Source: Alphaproteobacteria bacterium (GTDB lineage: Bacteria > Pseudomonadota > Alphaproteobacteria > UBA9219). Taken from it: a stretch of 64,000 nucleotides of DNA. The stretch's first letter is position 1; each line of letters starts with the position of its first letter. Shown here one piece after another: positions 20,327 through 37,596 of this stretch. The stretch covers positions 1-64,000 of the forward strand of contig JAMFSS010000009.1 in assembly GCA_026225415.1 (NCBI GenBank), written 5' to 3'. The notes beneath the pieces are model-generated. The model had not been told where the DNA came from and did no database searches. It worked only from the letters and a program-made list of their open reading frames with translations. Both the position numbers and the translations under genes were made by a program.

Positions 20327-21271
20327 TTACTTATTCGCGATGTTGTCCACATACCAATCATAGGCTTGCTGCATACCATTTTCAAATTCAGTCGGCGCAG
20401 ACCAACCGGCGGCACGAAGGCGGCCTACATCCATCACCTTACGCGGGGTGCCATCAGGTTTCGATGTGTTAAAGGTGAATTCGCCCTGCCAGCCAACAAT
20501 TTTGGCGACCGTTTGCGCCAATTCCAGAATGGTGATGTCGGTTCCGGTGCCGACATTCAAAAACGCTTCGTCGGAATAGTTCTTCATAACAAAGACGCAG
20601 GCATCGGCCAAATCTTCGGAAAACAGAAATTCGCGTTTCGGCGTGCCGGTGCCCCAAATTTCGACGGTGGGCGCATGGGCCTGTTTGGCGGCGTGCATTT
20701 TCATGATCATGGCCGCCACAACATGGCCGCCTTCGGCATCATAACGGTCGCCGGGGCCGAACAAATTGGTCGGCATCACCGAAACAAAGTCACAACCATA
20801 TTGGCGGCGATAAGCCTGACACAATTTGATGCCCGCAATTTTGGCGATGGCATACCATTCATTGGTCGGCTCCAACGCGCCGGTTAACAAAGACTCTTCC
20901 TTGATCGGTTGTTCCGCCATGCGTGGATAGATGCAGGACGAACCAAGGAACAGCAGTTTTTTCACGCCGGTTTTATAGGCGGCGTGAATAACATTGGTTT
21001 CGATCACCAGATTTTCATACAGAAATTCCGCCGGGCGCGTATTGTTGGCCTGGATACCGCCAACGGTGGCCGCAGCCAAAAACACGGCATCGATCTTATG
21101 GCTGGCCATCCAGTCATTAACGGCAGATTGGCTCAGCAAATCGACTTCATCGCGCGAGGCGGTAATAATCTCACAATTTTCGCCCGCCAAACGACGAACA
21201 ATGGCCGAACCCGCCATGCCGCGATGCCCTGCGACCCAAACGCGTTTATGGGAAAGGTCGAACCTAGTCAT
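20327..21271 (-). CDS. fcl: GDP-L-fucose synthase
   Basis: The enzyme turns GDP-4-keto-6-deoxymannose into GDP-L-fucose by epimerisation and NADPH reduction. [18 protein letters not shown] is the dinucleotide-binding site; FLGSSCIYP and the YAIAKIAG block give the Ser-Tyr-Lys triad of short-chain epimerases; [19 protein letters not shown] is typical of this enzyme. I chose ATG 21271 ([10 protein letters not shown]), which overlaps gmd by 8 bases; an ATG 18 bases further upstream is also possible. It works directly after gmd. Confidence 0.94.
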
Positions 21272-22334
21272 TGCCAATGCCGCGCACACGCGATTCTTCG
21301 GCGATAACCTTCAAATCGGACTTCATCATATCATCGACCAGTTCGGGGAATGTCACCGTGTGTTTCCACCCCAAAATGCGCTGGGCCTTCGACGGATCAC
21401 CCAACAGCAATTCAACTTCAGTCGGACGAAAATAACGCGGATCGACCTTAACAAGCTCCTGTCCAGTCGCGGCATCAAAGCCGACTTCGTCAACACCCTT
21501 GCCCTTCCATTCGATCTTGCGATCCACTTTGGAAAACGACAATTCGATAAATTCGCGCACCGAATGCATTTCGCCTGTCGCCAGAACAAAATCATCGGGC
21601 GTGTCATTTTGCAAAATGCGCCACATGCCTTCGACATAATCGCGGGCATGACCCCAATCGCGCAAGGAATCCAGATTGCCGATGAACAGTTGTTTTTGCA
21701 CGCCCAGATGAATACCGGCCACCGCGCGGGTAATTTTGCGGGTCACAAAAGTTTCGCCGCGGATAGGGCTTTCATGATTGAACAAAATGCCGTTGGACGC
21801 ATGCATGCCATAGGCTTCGCGGTAATTGACCGTTATCCAATAGGCATAAAGCTTTGCCGCCGCATAAGGGCTGCGCGGATAAAAGGGCGTGGTTTCTTTT
21901 TGCGGGGTTTCCTGAACCTTGCCATACAGTTCCGAAGTCGATGCCTGATAAAAACGCGTCTTCTTGACCAGACCCAGAATACGGATCGCTTCGAGCAGAC
22001 GCAACGCGCCGGTGGCATCGGCATTGGATGTGTATTCCGGCGTTTCAAAACTGACCTGCACATGGCTTTGCGCGGCGAGGTTATAAATTTCGTCCGGCTG
22101 CACCGTTTGGATAATGCGGATCAGGTTGGTGGAATCCGTCATATCGCCGTAATGCAAATGGAAACGGCTATTGGGAATATGGGGGTCTTGATAGATATGA
22201 TCGATACGCGCCGAGTTGAAAGATGACGAGCGGCGCTTGATGCCATGCACATCATAACCTTTGGCCAAAAGCAGATCGGCGAGATAGGCACCGTCCTGAC
22301 CGGTGATACCGGTGATAAGCGCAACTTTGGTCAT
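21264..22334 (-). CDS. gmd: GDP-mannose 4,6-dehydratase
   Basis: The first step of GDP-fucose synthesis: GDP-mannose is dehydrated to the 4-keto-6-deoxy sugar with [23 protein letters not shown] is the nucleotide-binding start, [11 protein letters not shown] gives the catalytic Thr/Ser region, and [15 protein letters not shown] the Tyr-Lys pair. From ATG 22332-22334 (preceded by GGAAAGAGGG) the protein is 356 aa. A longer reading frame upstream has no homology and is not used. GDP-fucose made here probably feeds the polysaccharide locus nearby. Confidence 0.95.
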
Positions 22335-22506
22335 AGCATCCCTCTTTCCAGGATTTGGAATTATGATTGAATGCAGTTGTTTAGAGCATTTTGTTGATAA
22401 AGGGGAAGAGATTTTTTGCGCAGTGCAATATAAGGTTAAAAACCTCTCTTTTAGCCCCCTTATAAGCCCCTGCCCACCCCTGCAAAGGGGGGGATAGCCG
22501 CTTCCC

Positions 22507-23043
22507 TTACGACAGGCCGAGTTCGACCTTATCCACACATTTCGGAAAGAAAGCCGGCCTTGTTGCCGACCAGCCGGGCGAGGTTGCCGCAGCCTGACTT
22601 ATGGATTGAAGCAAGTCTTTGCGCGCCTGTGACGGAATTTGGGGCAAAGCGGCCGCCGAAAGAAACGCGCCGGGCAGCCAGGGGCGGGATTCCGCGCCCA
22701 ACAAACGTTCATAAAGAAAGCGATAGGCGGCAAAGCTTTTGAGTTTCCCCTGCCCCAGATCGAACGCCGATACTTTAATCAGCTTGCCCATAAAAGCCTC
22801 GTCAACATAATGCTCGTCAATCTGCGGCAACATGTCGCGTAAAAATCTCAATTCCCGATAAGCCTGATATTGCTTGCTAATACCGATTTTTTCGGCATCA
22901 TCACGCGCCCAAAGTTCAAAAGCATCTCCCTGCCCAAGCCCCACTGCAAGAGATCGCGCGATATAACGTTCTTCGCCTTTGGAAAAACTCGCAAACTCGC
23001 GGAACTCAGAAACAAAAATTTTGGCAGAAGCATTCATGGACAC
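22507..23043 (-). CDS. Hypothetical protein (178 aa)
   Basis: I do not recognise this protein. It is soluble in appearance, with no signal peptide. The first two thirds look helical and charged ([38 protein letters not shown]); the last third is richer in Ala, Pro and Ser. Two start codons two residues apart are possible. It lies upstream of gmd on the same strand with a 172-base gap that contains C-rich and G-rich runs, so co-transcription is uncertain. Confidence 0.6.
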
Positions 23044-23370: not shown

Positions 23371-23979
23371 ATGATCGACGCCATGATCACGGATTTTGGG
23401 GACAGCGCCATCACGGGCGCGGTCGCCTGCGTCTTTGCGGCCTATATGTATTTCATCGCACAAAAACGCGCGGCGCTTGCGGTTATCATCGCTTTCACGG
23501 CAACGGCTTTGGCCATAGCCCTCTATAAAATAGCCGTTTACAGCCATTGCGCCATAGGGACAGGCTTTTACAATGTGCGATCCCCCAGCGGGCACACGGC
23601 CCTGTCCATCGCCACCTATGGCATTATCGCAAGCATCATTTCCACAGCGCTTCCCGCCAGACAAAAACCGATCCCCTATCTTATTCTCGCGCCAATCGTG
23701 TTTTTCATCGCCGTTTCCCGCGTCAGGATCGGCGCGCATACAACCGCCGAAGTGATAGCCGGCGCCATCTGCGGTGGCGGCATTGCGCTGGCTGTCTGGT
23801 ATTCCTTCATTCGCGGGCAGGATTTTCGCTTTCGCTGGCAAACGGCTCTTGGGATCGTGGCGCTCATCGCTGTCTTGCTCTATGGGCAACATTTACCCGC
23901 CGAAAATCTCATTCACAAACTGTCCGTGTATTTACAAAAAACAAGGGGCTGCAACATTGCCATTATTCCTTCTTCGTGA
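23371..23979 (+). CDS. PAP2 family membrane phosphatase
   Basis: The product is 202 aa with about five or six hydrophobic helices. RSPSGHTALSIATYG is phosphatase motif C2 (PSGH), and SRVRIGAHTTAEVIAG is motif C3 with its Arg and His; the final acidic residue is Glu instead of the usual Asp. The first motif (K-x6-RP) is weak, read as Lys of YKIAVYSH. Such enzymes dephosphorylate lipid phosphates, for example undecaprenyl pyrophosphate or lipid A. It opens the polysaccharide region, so lipid-carrier recycling is plausible but not shown. Confidence 0.82.
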   Translation: MIDAMITDFGDSAITGAVACVFAAYMYFIAQKRAALAVIIAFTATALAIALYKIAVYSHCAIGTGFYNVRSPSGHTALSIATYGIIASIISTALPARQKPIPYLILAPIVFFIAVSRVRIGAHTTAEVIAGAICGGGIALAVWYSFIRGQDFRFRWQTALGIVALIAVLLYGQHLPAENLIHKLSVYLQKTRGCNIAIIPSS

Positions 23980-24042
23980 TAAATCATATGCATAATGCTG
24001 ATGATCCTGGCATTTTTAACCAGCCACAAAATTATTATCCCT

Positions 24043-25175
24043 ATGAATAAGCTCGTTTCAAAACATGAAAATTTTCCGTCCGTCCAAATTCTACGCGCGC
24101 TCGCCGCTTTGCTTGTGGTTATCTGGCATTCGCATTTAGCCATTAAGATTTTCGCCAATAATTACTGGACATCCGATATTGCCGGGCATGGCCAATCCGC
24201 GTCAATTATCGGCTTTTTCCCGCTACATTACCTGTATATCGGCGTCGATATATTTTTCGTTATAAGCGGGTTTATTATGGCGATGCTTATCGAACGTGCC
24301 CCCCCCCCCATCACGGTTGGAAAAACTTCCTGATTGCCCGTTGCACAAGAATTTATCCGCCTTATTGGATATTTACGTTCTTCGTCGTCCTGGCCTACCT
24401 TATCAATCATAAATATAATCTGGGCCAATTCAGCGGTGCCCTAGATGTTGACGCAAAGAGGATCGGCATAGCGGTACTTTTATGGCCAGCCACCACAAGC
24501 CCTCCTCTCCTCGTCGCATGGACGCTCATTCACGAGATGATGTTTTACGGCGTATGCACATTGGCTCTTCTGACACGGCAAAAGAATGCGCTTGTCTGGA
24601 TGCTCTGCCTTCTGGTCGGCCTATCTTTTCTGCAATGGGACGCAGTCGCCACACCGGTAAAGGGGACGCTCTTTTCCATGTATGAAATTGAATTCCTGCT
24701 GGGGGTGCTTTCCTATCAATATCGGGCTTTCTTTTCCAAACTATTTCCGGGTCTGCAAATTATTTGCGCCATAGCACTATATCTTGTTATGGCCTGGGCA
24801 ATGGATCGATACGCCTATTCCGATGAATATCCCCTGCGGTTTATCGGCTTCGGCACCATAGCTTTTTTATTGATCAACGGCGCATTGGGAGTGGAAGAAA
24901 AATTTATCGCGCGGTTTGGTCGCACAGCATTCCTTCTCAAGAGATTAGGCGACGCATCCTATGTCCTCTATCTAAGCCACTGGCTCATCCTTTCCATCAT
25001 GGGAAAAATTGCCGCGCCAATGGCACAGGCGCCCCTCTTGTTTGTCATCGCATGGCATCTATTCAGCCTGTTCCTCTGCCTGGCTTTTGCCTTGGTATTT
25101 TCGGAACGCATAGAAATGCCTATGCATAGGCGTATAAAAAATGCCTTTTCGCCCTCACCCTTAAAGCCCACTTAA
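24043..25175 (+). pseudogene. Acyltransferase-3 family membrane protein, reading frame broken at an 11-C tract
   Basis: Frame one runs from ATG 24043 and reads VQILRALAALLVVIWHSHL and YIGVDIFFVISGFIMAML, the N-terminal helices and the active-site His of acyltransferase-3 (O-acetyltransferase) proteins. It crosses 11 Cs and stops at 24333. The homologous chain goes on in another frame from HGWKNFLIARCTRIYPPYWI to the end at 25175, with SYVLYLSHWLILSIMG near the C-terminus. Adding one C, or removing two, joins the frames into a protein of about 377 aa. Either the gene is phase-variable and switched off in this sequence, or it is a simple frameshift or sequencing error. Confidence 0.85.
24299..24309 (+). 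repeat. Homopolymer of 11 cytosines inside the acyltransferase gene
   Basis: Eleven consecutive Cs lie about 260 bases into the coding region. Tracts this long slip readily during replication. With 9 or 12 Cs the acyltransferase frame is open; with 10 or 11 it is closed. Confidence 0.95.
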
Positions 25176-25311: not shown

Positions 25312-25347
25312 TAAAAAAACCATGCCGTAAAAGGCATGGTTTTTTTG
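25312..25347. terminator. Bidirectional-looking rho-independent terminator
   Basis: AAAAAAACCATGCC, loop GTAAAA, then GGCATGGTTTTTTT. It follows the acyltransferase gene and would isolate it from the next pair of genes. A second perfect 7-bp hairpin, GTGGGAC-AA-GTCCCAC, follows at about 25351-25366. Confidence 0.85.
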
Positions 25348-31138: not shown

Positions 31139-32302
31139 TCAGGCGGTTTTCGCCCGACCGGTCGCTTCGCGGTAAATAACCAACAATTTTCCCAGCATGG
31201 CCGCATTGGTGCAATGCGTCAGGAAATGTTGCCGCGCCTGTTGCCCCACACGCGCCGCGCCTTCGGCGTCATTCATCACAACCGATAATTTCTGTTTCCA
31301 AGCATCGGGATCGAACGGATCAACCAGAAATCCGGTTTCGCCGTCCTGTATAATTTCTGCGAGTGACCCAATGCGCGACGCGATGACCGGCGTTGCCGAC
31401 GCCATTGCTTCCAATACAACCATGGGAAACCCTTCATACCAGCGCGACGGCATCACCACGGCGCGGGCGGTTTTTATTTTGTCCAAAACCTTATCCGGCG
31501 GCAACGCACCGGAAAAAACAACGCGCCCCTCCGCCTTTGTTTCCAACATTTGCCGGTCGGGGCCATCGCCGATAATTTCCACGATGCCGTCGATATCACG
31601 CGCGGCCTGAATAAGGGTTTCAACACCCTTTTCTGCGCTTAAACGCCCGACATAAATCAATTTGTTTTCGCGTTGCGGCGCGCCTGCCCCCACATCACCC
31701 ATGCCATTTCCGCGCACCACAATGTTTTGAGCGGGAAACCCATCGGCGACATAACGCGATTTGGCAAATTCCGTCAAAGCGATGAATGTAATTTTATTTG
31801 GATATTTTCTGATAATCTTTTTCAGATAACCGCCGATAAAACCCACGCAGGCCGAACCGATGACAGAATTGCGATAACAACGATACAGCACACCGCGCCA
31901 GCGCGATTTACCCACACAGGCTTCGCAAGGTTTGTTGTTACGCATCAATGTGGCCGCCGCGCAAAGAGGCCGGTAATTATGCAGTGTCACAACAACCGGC
32001 ACGCCCCGACGCGCCGCAACCGCAATCACCGCAGGCGATAACGTCGGAAAAAAATTATGGATATGCACGATATCGGGTTGGAAGGCGTCAAGCGCCGCTT
32101 TCATCTGGCCAACCGACCCTTTGTTGCACACAATGGATAAAGCGGCTTTTATCTTGGCGGTTATCCCGACGATATGATCGTTGCGCACCAGCAACCGCCG
32201 CACTTCATATCCATTTTGTTCAAGAAGAGCCGCTTCGCTATCAAAAACCGCATCTTCCCCACCGCGTTGTTGATACGCGGTGTGGGCCATCAAAATCTTC
32301 AT
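31139..32302 (-). CDS. Glycosyltransferase family 4
   Basis: The product is 387 aa. The N-terminal half has YQQRGGEDAVFDSEAALLEQ and VHIHNFFPTLSPAV, typical of capsule/EPS GT4 enzymes. The C-terminal Rossmann half has LIYVGRLSAEKGVETLI and the E-x7-E motif in EGFPMVVLEAMASATPVIAS, which holds the sugar nucleotide. A cysteine pair in CEACVGKSRW is common in this subgroup. It is the last gene of the xrtA operon and overlaps the WecG gene by four bases. Confidence 0.92.
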   Translation of the reverse strand: MKILMAHTAYQQRGGEDAVFDSEAALLEQNGYEVRRLLVRNDHIVGITAKIKAALSIVCNKGSVGQMKAALDAFQPDIVHIHNFFPTLSPAVIAVAARRGVPVVVTLHNYRPLCAAATLMRNNKPCEACVGKSRWRGVLYRCYRNSVIGSACVGFIGGYLKKIIRKYPNKITFIALTEFAKSRYVADGFPAQNIVVRGNGMGDVGAGAPQRENKLIYVGRLSAEKGVETLIQAARDIDGIVEIIGDGPDRQMLETKAEGRVVFSGALPPDKVLDKIKTARAVVMPSRWYEGFPMVVLEAMASATPVIASRIGSLAEIIQDGETGFLVDPFDPDAWKQKLSVVMNDAEGAARVGQQARQHFLTHCTNAAMLGKLLVIYREATGRAKTA

Positions 32303-33051
32303 GCGCCGGCAAGCCAGTTTTTAATGACAAGCCATACAAAACGGGGGTTATTCACAACATACCGTTTCCAAACACGTTTGGGTTCGGACATAAACCTGTG
32401 CACCCATTCCAATCCCGCGCGTTGCATCCATTGCGGCGCGCGCACTTTGGTTCCGGCATAAAAATCGAACACAGCGCCGATGGATGCCGTAAAGCCCACA
32501 TCCAGACGCGCGCGGTTTTCTTCGACCCATTTTTCCTGTTTCGGCGCGGTCATGCCCACCCATAACACACTGGGTTTTGCCGCGTTCACCGCCGCTATCA
32601 TGCGCGCATTGTCTTCTTCGGAAAAAACCGTTTTGAAGGGCGGCGATAAAACGCCTGCGATACGAATGTTCGGGTATTCCGCGGTAATCCGTTTGCTTAT
32701 CGCGTCCAGAACTTTGTCGCTGGATCCCAGAAAGAAATAGGAAACATCGCCCTGCACATCGGCAAGCGCGGAAAAAGCCGTAAAGAAATCATAGCCCGAA
32801 ACACGTTCCGCCAAAGGCTCGCCCAACAAACGGCTGGCCCACACAATGCTTGCGCCGTCGGGCACCAGCATATCGGATTTTTGCAGCGCCGCCCGGAATT
32901 CGCCATCTTCTTCGGCGACACAGGTTGAATGGGCGTTAATGGTCGCGACCGATTTTTGTTTTTCGCCGGATTCCAGCCATGTCAACGCCGTGCGCGTATC
33001 GGCTTGAATGCCCATCGCGCTAACATCATATTTTAAAAAGGCCTTGTTCAT
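32299..33051 (-). CDS. WecG/TagA/CpsF family glycosyltransferase
   Basis: The product is 250 aa. The family blocks are present: VATINAHSTCVAEEDGEFRA, LVPDGASIVWASRLLG, YFFLGSSDKVLDA and VLWVGMTAPKQEKWVEENR, with the final GAVFDFYAGTKVRAPQWMQR. These enzymes add a second sugar (ManNAc-type or other) to a lipid-linked first sugar on the inner face of the membrane. It overlaps both neighbours by four bases. Confidence 0.92.
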   Translation of the reverse strand: MNKAFLKYDVSAMGIQADTRTALTWLESGEKQKSVATINAHSTCVAEEDGEFRAALQKSDMLVPDGASIVWASRLLGEPLAERVSGYDFFTAFSALADVQGDVSYFFLGSSDKVLDAISKRITAEYPNIRIAGVLSPPFKTVFSEEDNARMIAAVNAAKPSVLWVGMTAPKQEKWVEENRARLDVGFTASIGAVFDFYAGTKVRAPQWMQRAGLEWVHRFMSEPKRVWKRYVVNNPRFVWLVIKNWLAGA

Positions 33052-34526
33052 GGCATTTCTCCATCTGCCTTCACGGCAAATCTTCTCTGTCGGGCAAATC
33101 TTTTTGCCTCGGCGACCAAAAACATCATTTTTTTCCGGAAAAAAACAATCAGGACGGAACTATAGATAGCACCTCCGGCCAAAACAAGGAACACTAGATT
33201 AACCCATTGTTTTTCATTAATTAATTGGTATTTTTGTAAAAAGATGATGCCGCCGGCCATCGTCAAAGCCGCCAAAAGCACCGGCCATAATTTCGCATAA
33301 TCGCGCCATAGGCTGAGCCGCAATTGGATTTTCAGCAATAAGGTATAAAGCGGTAACGACAGCAGGAGGAAAAAGACATAGCATGCCGTCATCGCGACCA
33401 CGCCTTGCGACACCGCAAACAGGCTAGCCAAAAGGCTGATGCAGACAAGCGACGCGTGCGCCTTGAAAAAACTGCCCATAGCATTATGGGCGCGGAAAAT
33501 GCTTTGCAAAATGGTCAGGAACGGGCTGACGGAAACGCTGAGCAGGAACAGCTGAAGGACCGGCGTGGCCTGCCGCCAGGACTCGCCAAAAAACAGCGGC
33601 ACATAAAGCGGGGCCAGGATGATCGCACCCGCCACGACAGGCAGCACAAGAATGCCAAGTATGAGGATAAGTTCGGAAAGAATTTTTTCCTGCTCGCCCT
33701 TATTTTCCTTGATCAACGAAAGCGCGGGGAAAACCACCGCCGATAAGGGCGCAAAGATGATTTCACGCAAGGCGCCGCCGACCCGATTGGCCAGCGCATA
33801 GAAACCGACATCAACGGGGGTCAGAAAAATACCCAGAAAAACCCGGGGCAATTGATCTTGCGCATAGGTGACAAGATTGACACCGGCGGATTTAAGCCCG
33901 GGCATCAGATATTTTCGCGCCTGCCCCCGATCAAAGAGCAGCCGGGGCTTCCAGGAAGAAGACAACCACAAAACAATATTGGCGACGAAACAAAGCGTTA
34001 TTTGTTGCGCCACCATAGCCATCGCCCCCATGCCGCGCAAAGCCAGGATGATGCCGACAATACCGCCGGCGATTGTGGCGACAAGGGTGCGGATCGCCGT
34101 GATGCGGAAATTCATCGCCGCGCCGAACAAAGCCGCAGGCAATGCAGAAAATCCCAGCAAAACCGGAACAATAGAAAACCACATCATGAATCCGGCCAAT
34201 CGCGGTTGATGGAACAACAACGCGATGGGATAGGCCAATAAATTCCCGGCCAGCGCAAAGAAAACCCCAAAACCAACGCATGACCAGAAGAGAGTGGACA
34301 GCCCCCTGTCATCGCTGATTTTCAGGCTGACAACGCCATCCGTAACGCAATAAAAAAACGTCGTCACCAATCCCGTATAGATATAGCAAAGCGAGATAAG
34401 CCCATATTCTTCGGGTCCCAAAAGGCGCGCAATAAAAGTGAAGACAATGAAAGACGCAAGCTGGTTCCCGCCTTTTTCAACAAAGGACCAAAACACGCCG
34501 CTCGCCATTTTCTTTCGGATGCTCAT
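33048..34526 (-). CDS. Polysaccharide flippase (Wzx/MATE-like)
   Basis: The product is 492 aa with about 12-14 hydrophobic helices. The start GVFWSFVEKGGNQLASFIVF and ARLLGPEEYGLISL is that of Wzx/PST family flippases, which move lipid-linked repeat units across the inner membrane. LPRVFLGIFLTPVDVGFYAL lies mid-protein. The gene sits in a chain of coupled glycan genes. Confidence 0.9.
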   Translation of the reverse strand: MSIRKKMASGVFWSFVEKGGNQLASFIVFTFIARLLGPEEYGLISLCYIYTGLVTTFFYCVTDGVVSLKISDDRGLSTLFWSCVGFGVFFALAGNLLAYPIALLFHQPRLAGFMMWFSIVPVLLGFSALPAALFGAAMNFRITAIRTLVATIAGGIVGIILALRGMGAMAMVAQQITLCFVANIVLWLSSSWKPRLLFDRGQARKYLMPGLKSAGVNLVTYAQDQLPRVFLGIFLTPVDVGFYALANRVGGALREIIFAPLSAVVFPALSLIKENKGEQEKILSELILILGILVLPVVAGAIILAPLYVPLFFGESWRQATPVLQLFLLSVSVSPFLTILQSIFRAHNAMGSFFKAHASLVCISLLASLFAVSQGVVAMTACYVFFLLLSLPLYTLLLKIQLRLSLWRDYAKLWPVLLAALTMAGGIIFLQKYQLINEKQWVNLVFLVLAGGAIYSSVLIVFFRKKMMFLVAEAKRFARQRRFAVKADGEMP

Positions 34527-34529
34527 GAT

Positions 34530-35537
34530 TTATTTCATCCGCGCAAGAGAGGTAGCCGTGGCGCGGACATACCCATAGCGACGCAACAGTTTTTCGCCAA
34601 TGAAAGAGGCGCGGATATGCGCATAGACATACAATATTTTATCGACGCGACGTAGCCCGAACAGAAAAGCCGCGATAGCCATGCGTGACTGAAACGGGTT
34701 TTGGCCATGCGCCAACAGGGAACAAAACACGGTGCGGAAAAGCCCGCGCCGCCCCAGGCTTGAAAGATGTTTAAGCATCATCTTCCGTACCAACGGTTTC
34801 ATGATCAGACGGTCATCCGCATTTTGCATTCTGTAAAGCCGGTAATAGGCCAGGATAATGCGGCGGTAACTTTTGGTATAGGTTGGCAACGAATTGGTTG
34901 AAGGCGAACGATACAAGGTTACAGGCGTTGTCAAGGAAATGACCTTGCCATAAGCCGCCAACCGCAACAGCAAACCCCAATCATGATTGCCGCGAATTTC
35001 GGGGTGCCCGCCGACCGCCATATAGGCGTCGCGGCGGAAGCTGAAAACACTGCTGCCCCCCGCTATATTACCCTGTGTCAATAGCGTGAAATGGGAAAGC
35101 GATGCGGGCGCGATTTGCACGCGGTAAGGGATAAGATCATCCGTGCACCAATAGAACCCACCGATAATGCATTGGGTTTCGGATGATGCGACTTGCCATG
35201 CTTCCGTGAATTTTTCGATGGAATCGGGCAGATAGCAATCATCGGAGTCAAGCAACGTCACACAGGGTTGTGACGTTTGGGCCACCGCGCGGTTCATTGA
35301 CGCCGCACCACCAAGATTGACCTCGTTACGCATGATCCTTAAAATAATCCCTTGGGGCGGCGCGGGAATATGTTCCAGCGCCAGCGGAACGGTCGAACAA
35401 TCATCGACAATAATAATTTCACGGGGCAGCACCGTTTGTTGATAAATACTAAACAAAGTCTGCCGCAATTCGGGCACACGATCCTTGACCGGTATCACCA
35501 CCGCAAAGAAGATTTCTTTTTTCTCTGTGTCATTCAT
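34530..35537 (-). CDS. Glycosyltransferase family 2
   Basis: The product is 335 aa. The GT-A start FFAVVIPVKDRVPELRQTLF, IIVDDCS and the metal-binding LLDSDDCYLPDSIEKF are clear. RGNHDWGLLLRLAAYG carries the catalytic-base region (ED-like HDW). The C-terminal 90 residues are basic and may contact the membrane. It lies 3 bases upstream of the flippase gene and overlaps the acetyltransferase gene by four bases. Confidence 0.92.
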   Translation of the reverse strand: MNDTEKKEIFFAVVIPVKDRVPELRQTLFSIYQQTVLPREIIIVDDCSTVPLALEHIPAPPQGIILRIMRNEVNLGGAASMNRAVAQTSQPCVTLLDSDDCYLPDSIEKFTEAWQVASSETQCIIGGFYWCTDDLIPYRVQIAPASLSHFTLLTQGNIAGGSSVFSFRRDAYMAVGGHPEIRGNHDWGLLLRLAAYGKVISLTTPVTLYRSPSTNSLPTYTKSYRRIILAYYRLYRMQNADDRLIMKPLVRKMMLKHLSSLGRRGLFRTVFCSLLAHGQNPFQSRMAIAAFLFGLRRVDKILYVYAHIRASFIGEKLLRRYGYVRATATSLARMK

Positions 35538-36031
35538 GAGTTAATAATTCTGGCCGGATTGCCGACAACCGTTGCGCCCGCGGGAATGTCTTTGACCACC
35601 ACCGCACCCGCGCCGATAACGGCGTGATCGCCGATTGTGATTTTACCCAACAGAATGGCCCCCACGCCAATATTGACATGATCGCCGAGAACCGGCGCAT
35701 AAAACACGCCGCCCACTTCCTTCTCGCCGATAGTGACACAATGACGGATCTGCACATCTTTGCCGATAACCGCGCCGCTGTTGATGACCGTGGCATAGCC
35801 GTGATACAGCCGCGCCCCCTCGCCTATCGTTGCCCGCCAATGAATTTCTGTGCCGATAAAAAGTTCCATCACAATTTTATAGAACACCAGATAAATGAGG
35901 CTGAACGGTTTGATAAAAACCGGCGCATTCAGATGCGCATGCGCAAACCGGTACAGCGCAAGCAACAGAAACCCTTTCCAATTGCGGGGGTTTGCCTTGT
36001 AATCGCTTGCTATCAATTTAAACAGGGTCAT
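35534..36031 (-). CDS. Serine acetyltransferase-like hexapeptide-repeat protein
   Basis: The product is 165 aa. The C-terminal half has the left-handed beta-helix repeats: TVINSGAVIGKDVQIRHCVT, VLGDHVNIGVGAILLGKITI, GDHAVIGAGAVVVKDIPAGA, ending VVGNPARI. The histidine of RHCVTIGEK is at the usual catalytic place. CysE-like proteins this short, inside EPS loci, usually O- or N-acetylate a sugar rather than serine. It is coupled by four-base overlaps to xrtA and to the GT2 gene. Confidence 0.9.
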   Translation of the reverse strand: MTLFKLIASDYKANPRNWKGFLLLALYRFAHAHLNAPVFIKPFSLIYLVFYKIVMELFIGTEIHWRATIGEGARLYHGYATVINSGAVIGKDVQIRHCVTIGEKEVGGVFYAPVLGDHVNIGVGAILLGKITIGDHAVIGAGAVVVKDIPAGATVVGNPARIINS

Positions 36032-37596
36032 GGCGCGTCCGTTTTGGCTGGCGAATAATCGGGGATAAATTTTTGCATAGCCTCTGACGACGCGCCCAGA
36101 AAATTTTGCAATCTTTTATCCGCATCATCTTCCTGTTCCGATATATCAATGGGTGTGGTCAGCCGGACAAGCGCGCCATCGGTGCGCCCTGTGGTGATCG
36201 AGTCCGCAATAATGCGCGCCTTGACGCGATAAAAATCGGGTTCGGAAACGCCGCGTTGTTCAAACCAGTAATAGACCAACAAGCGCGACATGCCCCGTTC
36301 GATAATCAACCGGTTAAGGTGAAGCGCATTCGTGGCGCGTGGTGATAGATTTATCTGCCGCACCGATTGGTTGATGGTTTTCCATCCACTGCCCGGCAAA
36401 CATATCATCGGCGAATGAAACGTGCGTTCGTTCCGCTGGCTGTCGTAATAGGCGACAAAAAAATTAACCGACTGTTTAGCATCGGGCGTTACAAAATCCC
36501 AATCCCTGACATCGGTTGCCTTGAGCAGATCGAGCGTATCGCTATCGATCAACTCTTCGTGCCCCGTCCAGCCTCCGATAGCCGTAGGGAAATTCGAAAA
36601 GCTTTCGCGCAAGGGGATTATTTCCGGTTTCGGCGAAAGAATGCCCGCGCCGTAAAGCGCCGATGCGGCCAACAAAAGAGCGAGCGTCAAAACAACGGCG
36701 GCATCTGTTTTCACCTGCCCCCCAACACGCGGTTTGGATGGCCAATTGAAATAATGATCGGACAAACGCCCTTGCGGCGGGATACGCGTCAGCATAACCG
36801 CTTCGCCATACAGCAATACTATACAGAGCGCGAAGGAGACCCAACCTTCGATATCATGCGTGATGGTGACCGCCTGTTCCGTTCCGAACAGGCTGGCGAC
36901 GATACCGATAACCGCGATGCGCAAGGCGTTAAACCCGATGGCGGCGGGAATGGCGGATAAAAATATCGTGACGCGTTTCCACAAAACATCATCCAGCAGG
37001 ACAGCGAACAGAAAGCTGAAACTGGTGAGGGGGAAGAGGTAACGCAATCCGCTGCAGGCCTCGACCACTTGCAGTTTATAGGTGCCGAGATCGATGATGT
37101 TGCCATCCTGAAAAACCGAAACGCCGATATGGTGGAGCAAAAAAACGCCGAGGCCGGACGACACAAGCTGCATTTTTGCCGACAGGCTCATATAGGCCGC
37201 CTGTGGCAAGGGAATGGCAAAAAATAAATAAGCCAGCGCTGGCCATGTTTTTTTGACTATGCCCCCTCCATAAAAGGCAAGGAACGCGCCATAAAACAGG
37301 CCAAGCAAAGCATATTGCGGCATCGTCATAATGCCTGATAATTCGCCCACCGCCCAGAAACACAGGCTGAGCGCGACCAGGGCGCACCCCACCCAGGATG
37401 ATTTTATGGCCACCGGTTTTTCGGCCAAACGATGCGCGCCAATCCACAACGCCAGAGGCAGAATGAAATAACCGTGGCTATATTCTTCCTGTTGCCATGA
37501 AGCATAAATGCCTTTGGCGGCGCCCCAGCAAATGAACAAGGGAAAGCCGATGGCGAACAGCGCCCACAAAAAAGCCGCGTTATTTTGTGATTTCAT
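36028..37596 (-). CDS. xrtA: Exosortase A fused to EpsI domain
   Basis: The product is 522 aa. The first 300 residues are a polytopic exosortase with the active-site cysteine in VVEACSGLRYLFPL, the arginine in FNALRIAVIG, and the histidine in ITHDIEGW. The last 220 residues are an EpsI-type domain (FPTAIGGWTG, then FVAYYDSQRNERTFHSP and ICLPGSGW). Exosortases process proteins with a C-terminal PEP-CTERM anchor; none of the proteins in this window shows such a tail, so substrates are elsewhere. It is the first gene of a six-gene coupled operon of polysaccharide genes. Confidence 0.93.
   Translation of the reverse strand: MKSQNNAAFLWALFAIGFPLFICWGAAKGIYASWQQEEYSHGYFILPLALWIGAHRLAEKPVAIKSSWVGCALVALSLCFWAVGELSGIMTMPQYALLGLFYGAFLAFYGGGIVKKTWPALAYLFFAIPLPQAAYMSLSAKMQLVSSGLGVFLLHHIGVSVFQDGNIIDLGTYKLQVVEACSGLRYLFPLTSFSFLFAVLLDDVLWKRVTIFLSAIPAAIGFNALRIAVIGIVASLFGTEQAVTITHDIEGWVSFALCIVLLYGEAVMLTRIPPQGRLSDHYFNWPSKPRVGGQVKTDAAVVLTLALLLAASALYGAGILSPKPEIIPLRESFSNFPTAIGGWTGHEELIDSDTLDLLKATDVRDWDFVTPDAKQSVNFFVAYYDSQRNERTFHSPMICLPGSGWKTINQSVRQINLSPRATNALHLNRLIIERGMSRLLVYYWFEQRGVSEPDFYRVKARIIADSITTGRTDGALVRLTTPIDISEQEDDADKRLQNFLGASSEAMQKFIPDYSPAKTDAP

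Follow-up and report, generated by a model that had tools for sequence, protein, structure and literature searches.

Is an acyltransferase gene that changes reading frame at a run of 11 Cs a switchable gene caught in its OFF state, a gene recently lost, or an artefact of assembly? The best-known cases of surface chemistry switched by C tracts are in Neisseria, Haemophilus and Campylobacter; the gene considered here belongs to an alphaproteobacterium, and lies in a 64-kb stretch of its genome (the window), to which coordinates refer unless a contig or locus is named.

An acyltransferase gene divided between two frames

Window positions 24043-25175 encode an acyltransferase-3 protein (AT3, PF01757) that is split over two frames, with the change-over at an exact run of 11 Cs (24299-24309). 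The first half (24043-24333, + strand) extends from an ATG at 24043 to a TGA at 24331-24333, which closes the frame seven codons past the C run and leaves a product of 96 amino acids; another in-frame ATG is found further upstream, at 23995. The second half (24300-25175, + strand) occupies the -1/+2 frame, which is open from before the C tract through to the stop at 25175. The sequence around the tract reads ...ATC GAA CGT G, then the 11 Cs, then ATCACGGTTGGAAA, and the tract itself codes for prolines of the TM2-TM3 loop. On the Pfam Acyl_transf_3 profile the first half matches positions 3-65 (E = 7e-8) and the second positions 65-325 of 326 (E = 1e-16), both above the gathering cut-off; since the two matches are contiguous, no part of the protein is missing and the frame change falls at the C tract. 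By codon-use scores each half is coding-like in its own expected frame and not in the other frames, and apart from the C tract no second stop or frame change was seen in the gene (about 375 codons). The first-pass annotation had described two AT3 halves in different frames meeting at 11 Cs, and had read this as an OFF allele with a single lesion in an otherwise intact gene; both descriptions hold.

The motif set reported for AT3 proteins (R-X10-H in TM1, V-x-x-F-F-x-(I/V/L)-S-G-(F/W/Y), and RXXR at TM3; PMC9833829, PMC9558356) was looked for and found complete, as R18-X10-H29 in TM1, VDIFFVISGF, and RCTR at the cytoplasmic end of TM3. The tract divides this set, with R-X10-H and VDIFFVISGF before it and the RXXR motif after it in the other frame, together with the remainder of the domain. 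R-X10-H and RXXR are both essential in experimentally studied AT3 proteins (PMC9833829, PMC9558356), and because they sit here in different halves, the 96-residue product of the 11-C allele cannot be a working enzyme. Six AT3 homologs, of about 27-41% identity, align with both halves; the TM2-TM3 loop that bears the tract is longer than in these homologs, and judging from this greater length it probably tolerates length change. No solved AT3 structure was matched by sequence. The product of a full-length gene would be an integral-membrane AT3 acyltransferase, probably an O-acetyltransferase acting on an envelope glycan.

Length and chance occurrence of the tract

Other C or G runs in the window reach 7 at most, and Markov models of order 1-5 predict 0.0005-0.03 runs of at least 11 per window; under an order-3 simulation a run of 11 arose in 7 of 300 windows. 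The whole 2.02-Mb genome has three distinct 11-C tracts (4 hits) and five distinct runs of at least 9, namely the AT3 tract (11), the ends of contigs C3 and C6 (11), C6:325374 (11), C3:32353 (9) and C9:264568 (9). We counted the C3 and C6 ends once, as they have both the tract and a hairpin in common; the tract there is intergenic, between a stop codon and the terminator hairpin. Also intergenic is the 11-C tract at C6:325374-325384 (L235:1505-1515), which has a ribosomal-protein-like gene and its terminator on one side and the following gene on the other, while the 9-mer at C3:32353 is inside a long open frame. Runs of 11 are somewhat commoner in the genome than composition predicts, and only the AT3 run shifts the frame of a gene. 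An 11-C run is unusual, then, for a single window and less so genome-wide; what adds weight is that the frame of a gene with no other lesion changes exactly at the run.

Of 387 alphaproteobacterial genomes sampled, 182 have a run of at least 11, and about one in eight of the 387 has four or more such runs (counted from the table of runs). An exceptional richness of this genome in C tracts was not upheld, its place being only roughly in the top eighth of the class. Nor is the tract the mark of a mismatch-repair mutant, since mutS (879 bits) and mutL (557 bits, inside the window) are both full length; a hypermutator arising through mismatch-repair loss was rejected.

Two side observations concern the intergenic tracts. 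The same stretch, an 11-C tract with a terminator-like hairpin, stands at the start of contigs C3 (L296:6-16) and C6 (L295:23-33), which probably either adjoin, broken at the tract, or share a repeated element. The tract at C6:325374-325384 is so positioned that it could affect a promoter.

Gene neighbourhood and origin

Directly upstream of the AT3 gene, on the same strand, is a gene for a PAP2-superfamily phosphatase (23371-23979, + strand; PF01569, E = 8e-12), which ends 63 bases before the AT3 ATG. Downstream we read directly in the sequence a hairpin, CCATGCC-GTAAAA-GGCATGG, followed by seven Ts (25320-25346, + strand; absent from the pattern-scan list), which is probably the terminator of a PAP2-AT3 unit. 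With the two genes on one strand and a hairpin with a T-run behind them, they probably form a small operon; a promoter scan returned nothing scoring above shuffles.

Genes for GDP-mannose 4,6-dehydratase and GDP-fucose synthase (20327-22538) are about 1.5 kb away on the strand opposite AT3, and a cluster of glycosyltransferases, a MOP-family flippase and an XrtD exosortase (31139-37596) is 6-12 kb away. The XrtD-type exosortase scores 486.7 bits, above cut-off, and the cluster also includes a hexapeptide transferase and a WecG-type transferase. It had been proposed that switching would vary the polysaccharide made by this locus; the GDP-fucose genes and the glycosyltransferase/exosortase cluster are indeed nearby, but what links them to AT3 is proximity only; a role of AT3 in decorating the glycan of the neighbouring cluster is possible.

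The G+C content of the AT3 gene is 47.7%, compared with 54.4% for the PAP2 gene, and no close AT3 counterpart was found in nine other species of the genus, though six of these have the PAP2 gene. A wider search for a close AT3 homolog, covering relatives, 385 genomes of the class, plasmids, phages, viral contigs and genome contigs, likewise returned none. The low G+C together with the absence from sister species suggests that the AT3 gene was acquired horizontally. A C tract at the same AT3 position was not found in related genomes, the gene being missing from the sister species and the six distant homologs being without the tract.

Probable phase variation and its alternatives

We consider phase variation of the AT3 gene via its C tract to be the best explanation and a plausible one at this locus, with a probability of about 0.6. 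The locus combines several features of a contingency locus: a repeat long enough to slip, located within coding sequence, with ON and OFF set by frame, in a gene that is otherwise intact. We count C11 as long enough to slip because most homopolymers of at least 8 varied in re-sequenced meningococci (PMC5084427); half of the strong candidates for phase variation in that species were G/C tracts (PMC5084427). Slipped-strand mispairing at replication would alter the number of Cs in a minority of cells, and one of the three length classes (modulo 3) would join the AT3 halves, giving random ON or OFF states in a clonal population, of which the 11-C copy in the assembly would be an OFF allele. The rate and reversibility of slippage we infer, as we do the acyl donor, the glycan acceptor and any selective value of AT3 switching. 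Telling against phase variation are the absence of the AT3 gene from sister species, the intergenic position of the other two 11-C tracts, the commonness of long C tracts in Alphaproteobacteria, and those tracts in relatives that fall within ordinary metabolic genes or resemble contig-end artefacts.

The first-pass annotation had appealed to known contingency switching in O-acetyltransferase genes, and such precedents exist in meningococcal pglI and H. influenzae oafA. The Neisseria meningitidis gene pglI, for the pilin-glycan O-acetyltransferase, is like ours an AT3 gene (its domain is PF01757; PMC1976384), and its system switches at homopolymeric tracts (PMC5445459, PMC3566031); in 41% of paired meningococcal carriage isolates pglI had undergone phase variation (PMC5445459). 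Variation was thus observed between isolates in that case, whereas ours is a single allele in another lineage. In Haemophilus influenzae, oafA (LOS O-acetyltransferase) is an AT3 gene with ON and OFF set by a repeat, and the first sequenced genome had a frameshifted copy (PMC9558356); the repeat, to go by the title of a reference cited in PMC9558356, is a tetranucleotide, in contrast to the mononucleotide tract here. Salmonella oafB is a phase-variable AT3 acetyltransferase that acts on O-antigen (PMC9558356), but it switches through DNA methylation; the signature sequences are found ahead of the gene, and no coding tract of the kind seen here takes part. The phase variation that had been proposed for this gene is plausible, and probably the best explanation in view of the precedents in the AT3 family and the tracts in sister species; as a whole the first-pass interpretation is supported in part.

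One alternative, which we think unlikely, is an ordinary recent pseudogene, in which a single slip occurred in a dispensable, horizontally acquired gene with no selection for switching. The low G+C of the gene, its absence from sister species and the mostly intergenic position of the other long C tracts in the genome all suit such a history; the lack of a second lesion, the coding-type codon use and the retention of every key motif tell against it, except that a recent loss would look identical.

We also judge improbable a consensus or assembly error, by which the dominant tract length would differ from 11 and the gene would be intact in the organism. Two more runs in the genome were likewise called as 11 and the AT3 tract bears no positive sign of error, to be set against the facts that long homopolymers are a common site of such errors, that C tracts are break points in the assemblies of this genome and its relatives, and that the AT3 gene is without any other lesion. 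Even were the consensus wrong, there is still a slippery tract in the AT3 gene.

Very improbable is recoding, in which slippage during translation or transcription of the C tract would let the 11-C allele still give some full-length enzyme: the tract is a proline-coding homopolymer, and a shift of -1 on it would lead into the second frame, but none of the six aligned AT3 homologs has a comparable tract there, which rules out a conserved recoding site and is compatible with recoding at a low background level.

C tracts in related genomes

Our sample of the family comprised 24 genomes from 9 genera, and in our tree the family forms its own clade within Alphaproteobacteria, near Micavibrio and Acetobacteraceae. 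Runs of at least 11 numbered 27 in genome G006, 25 in G003, 20 in G010, 14 in G005, 12 in G004, 4 hits (3 distinct) in the genome under study (G000), and 0-6 in the others. Several of the tracts in G005 and G006 are at contig ends in low-complexity sequence (L193, L194, L061 and L182, with very long C/G runs); these contig-end runs are probably sequencing or assembly artefacts that inflate the tract counts. Some tracts in relatives fall within ordinary metabolic genes.

In G007, of the same genus as our genome, a WecA-like (Glycos_transf_4) gene (L062:725-1756) contains an in-frame 11-G run and adjoins genes for a UDP-GlcNAc 2-epimerase and an AT3-SGNH protein (AT3 with a further C-terminal part). 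It resembles our locus in having an 11-bp C/G tract inside a polysaccharide gene with an AT3 gene adjoining, and differs in that the tract is in another enzyme, is G on the coding strand and is in frame (ON), whereas ours is C and out of frame.

Two further genomes have tracts toward the front of genes. In G003, again of the same genus, 6 of the 15 internal tracts lie at the beginning of a frame at least 100 codons long, behind its start codon and a ribosome-binding site, compared with 6.9% at random positions (P = 3e-4); two of the six are in frame and four shifted. Tracts of C11-C21 within about 40 bases of a start codon were seen at G003 loci L048, L049, L054, L056-L059, L176-L179 and L277-L284, where several of the genes encode exported proteins without a Pfam family, and the frame puts some genes ON and others OFF. 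In G010, of a sister genus, secreted proteins form a paralogous family, one member of which has 29 matching stretches; they have in common a short leader, ATG-...-TTA, followed by C9-C21 of varying length and by a conserved core of the signal peptide, for example ITNCCIIxFCL. The paralogs are at loci L215, L285-L293 and L355-L365, some with an Lcl_C domain, and contigs often end at their tracts.

Such sequence patterns hint that C/G tracts in surface genes may be retained in the lineage. That C tracts make a set of genes phase-variable in the family, comprising surface-polysaccharide genes (AT3 and the WecA-like gene of G007) and the G003 and G010 secreted-protein paralogs with the tract at the N-terminal end of the signal peptide, we advance tentatively, as a proposal that may well prove wrong. 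A literature search gave no report of such C-tract switching in this family.

Implications for the family

Phase-variable AT3 genes are already known, and of greater interest as a lead is the wider tract pattern across the family; the specific tracts named here can be checked directly in existing reads. If AT3 is indeed phase-variable, a little-known alphaproteobacterial family switches its surface chemistry by C tracts in the manner of Neisseria, Haemophilus and Campylobacter, which would point to fluctuating pressure on the cell surface from phage, predators or a host. If the family-wide set is also real, frame slippage would switch many surface components independently.
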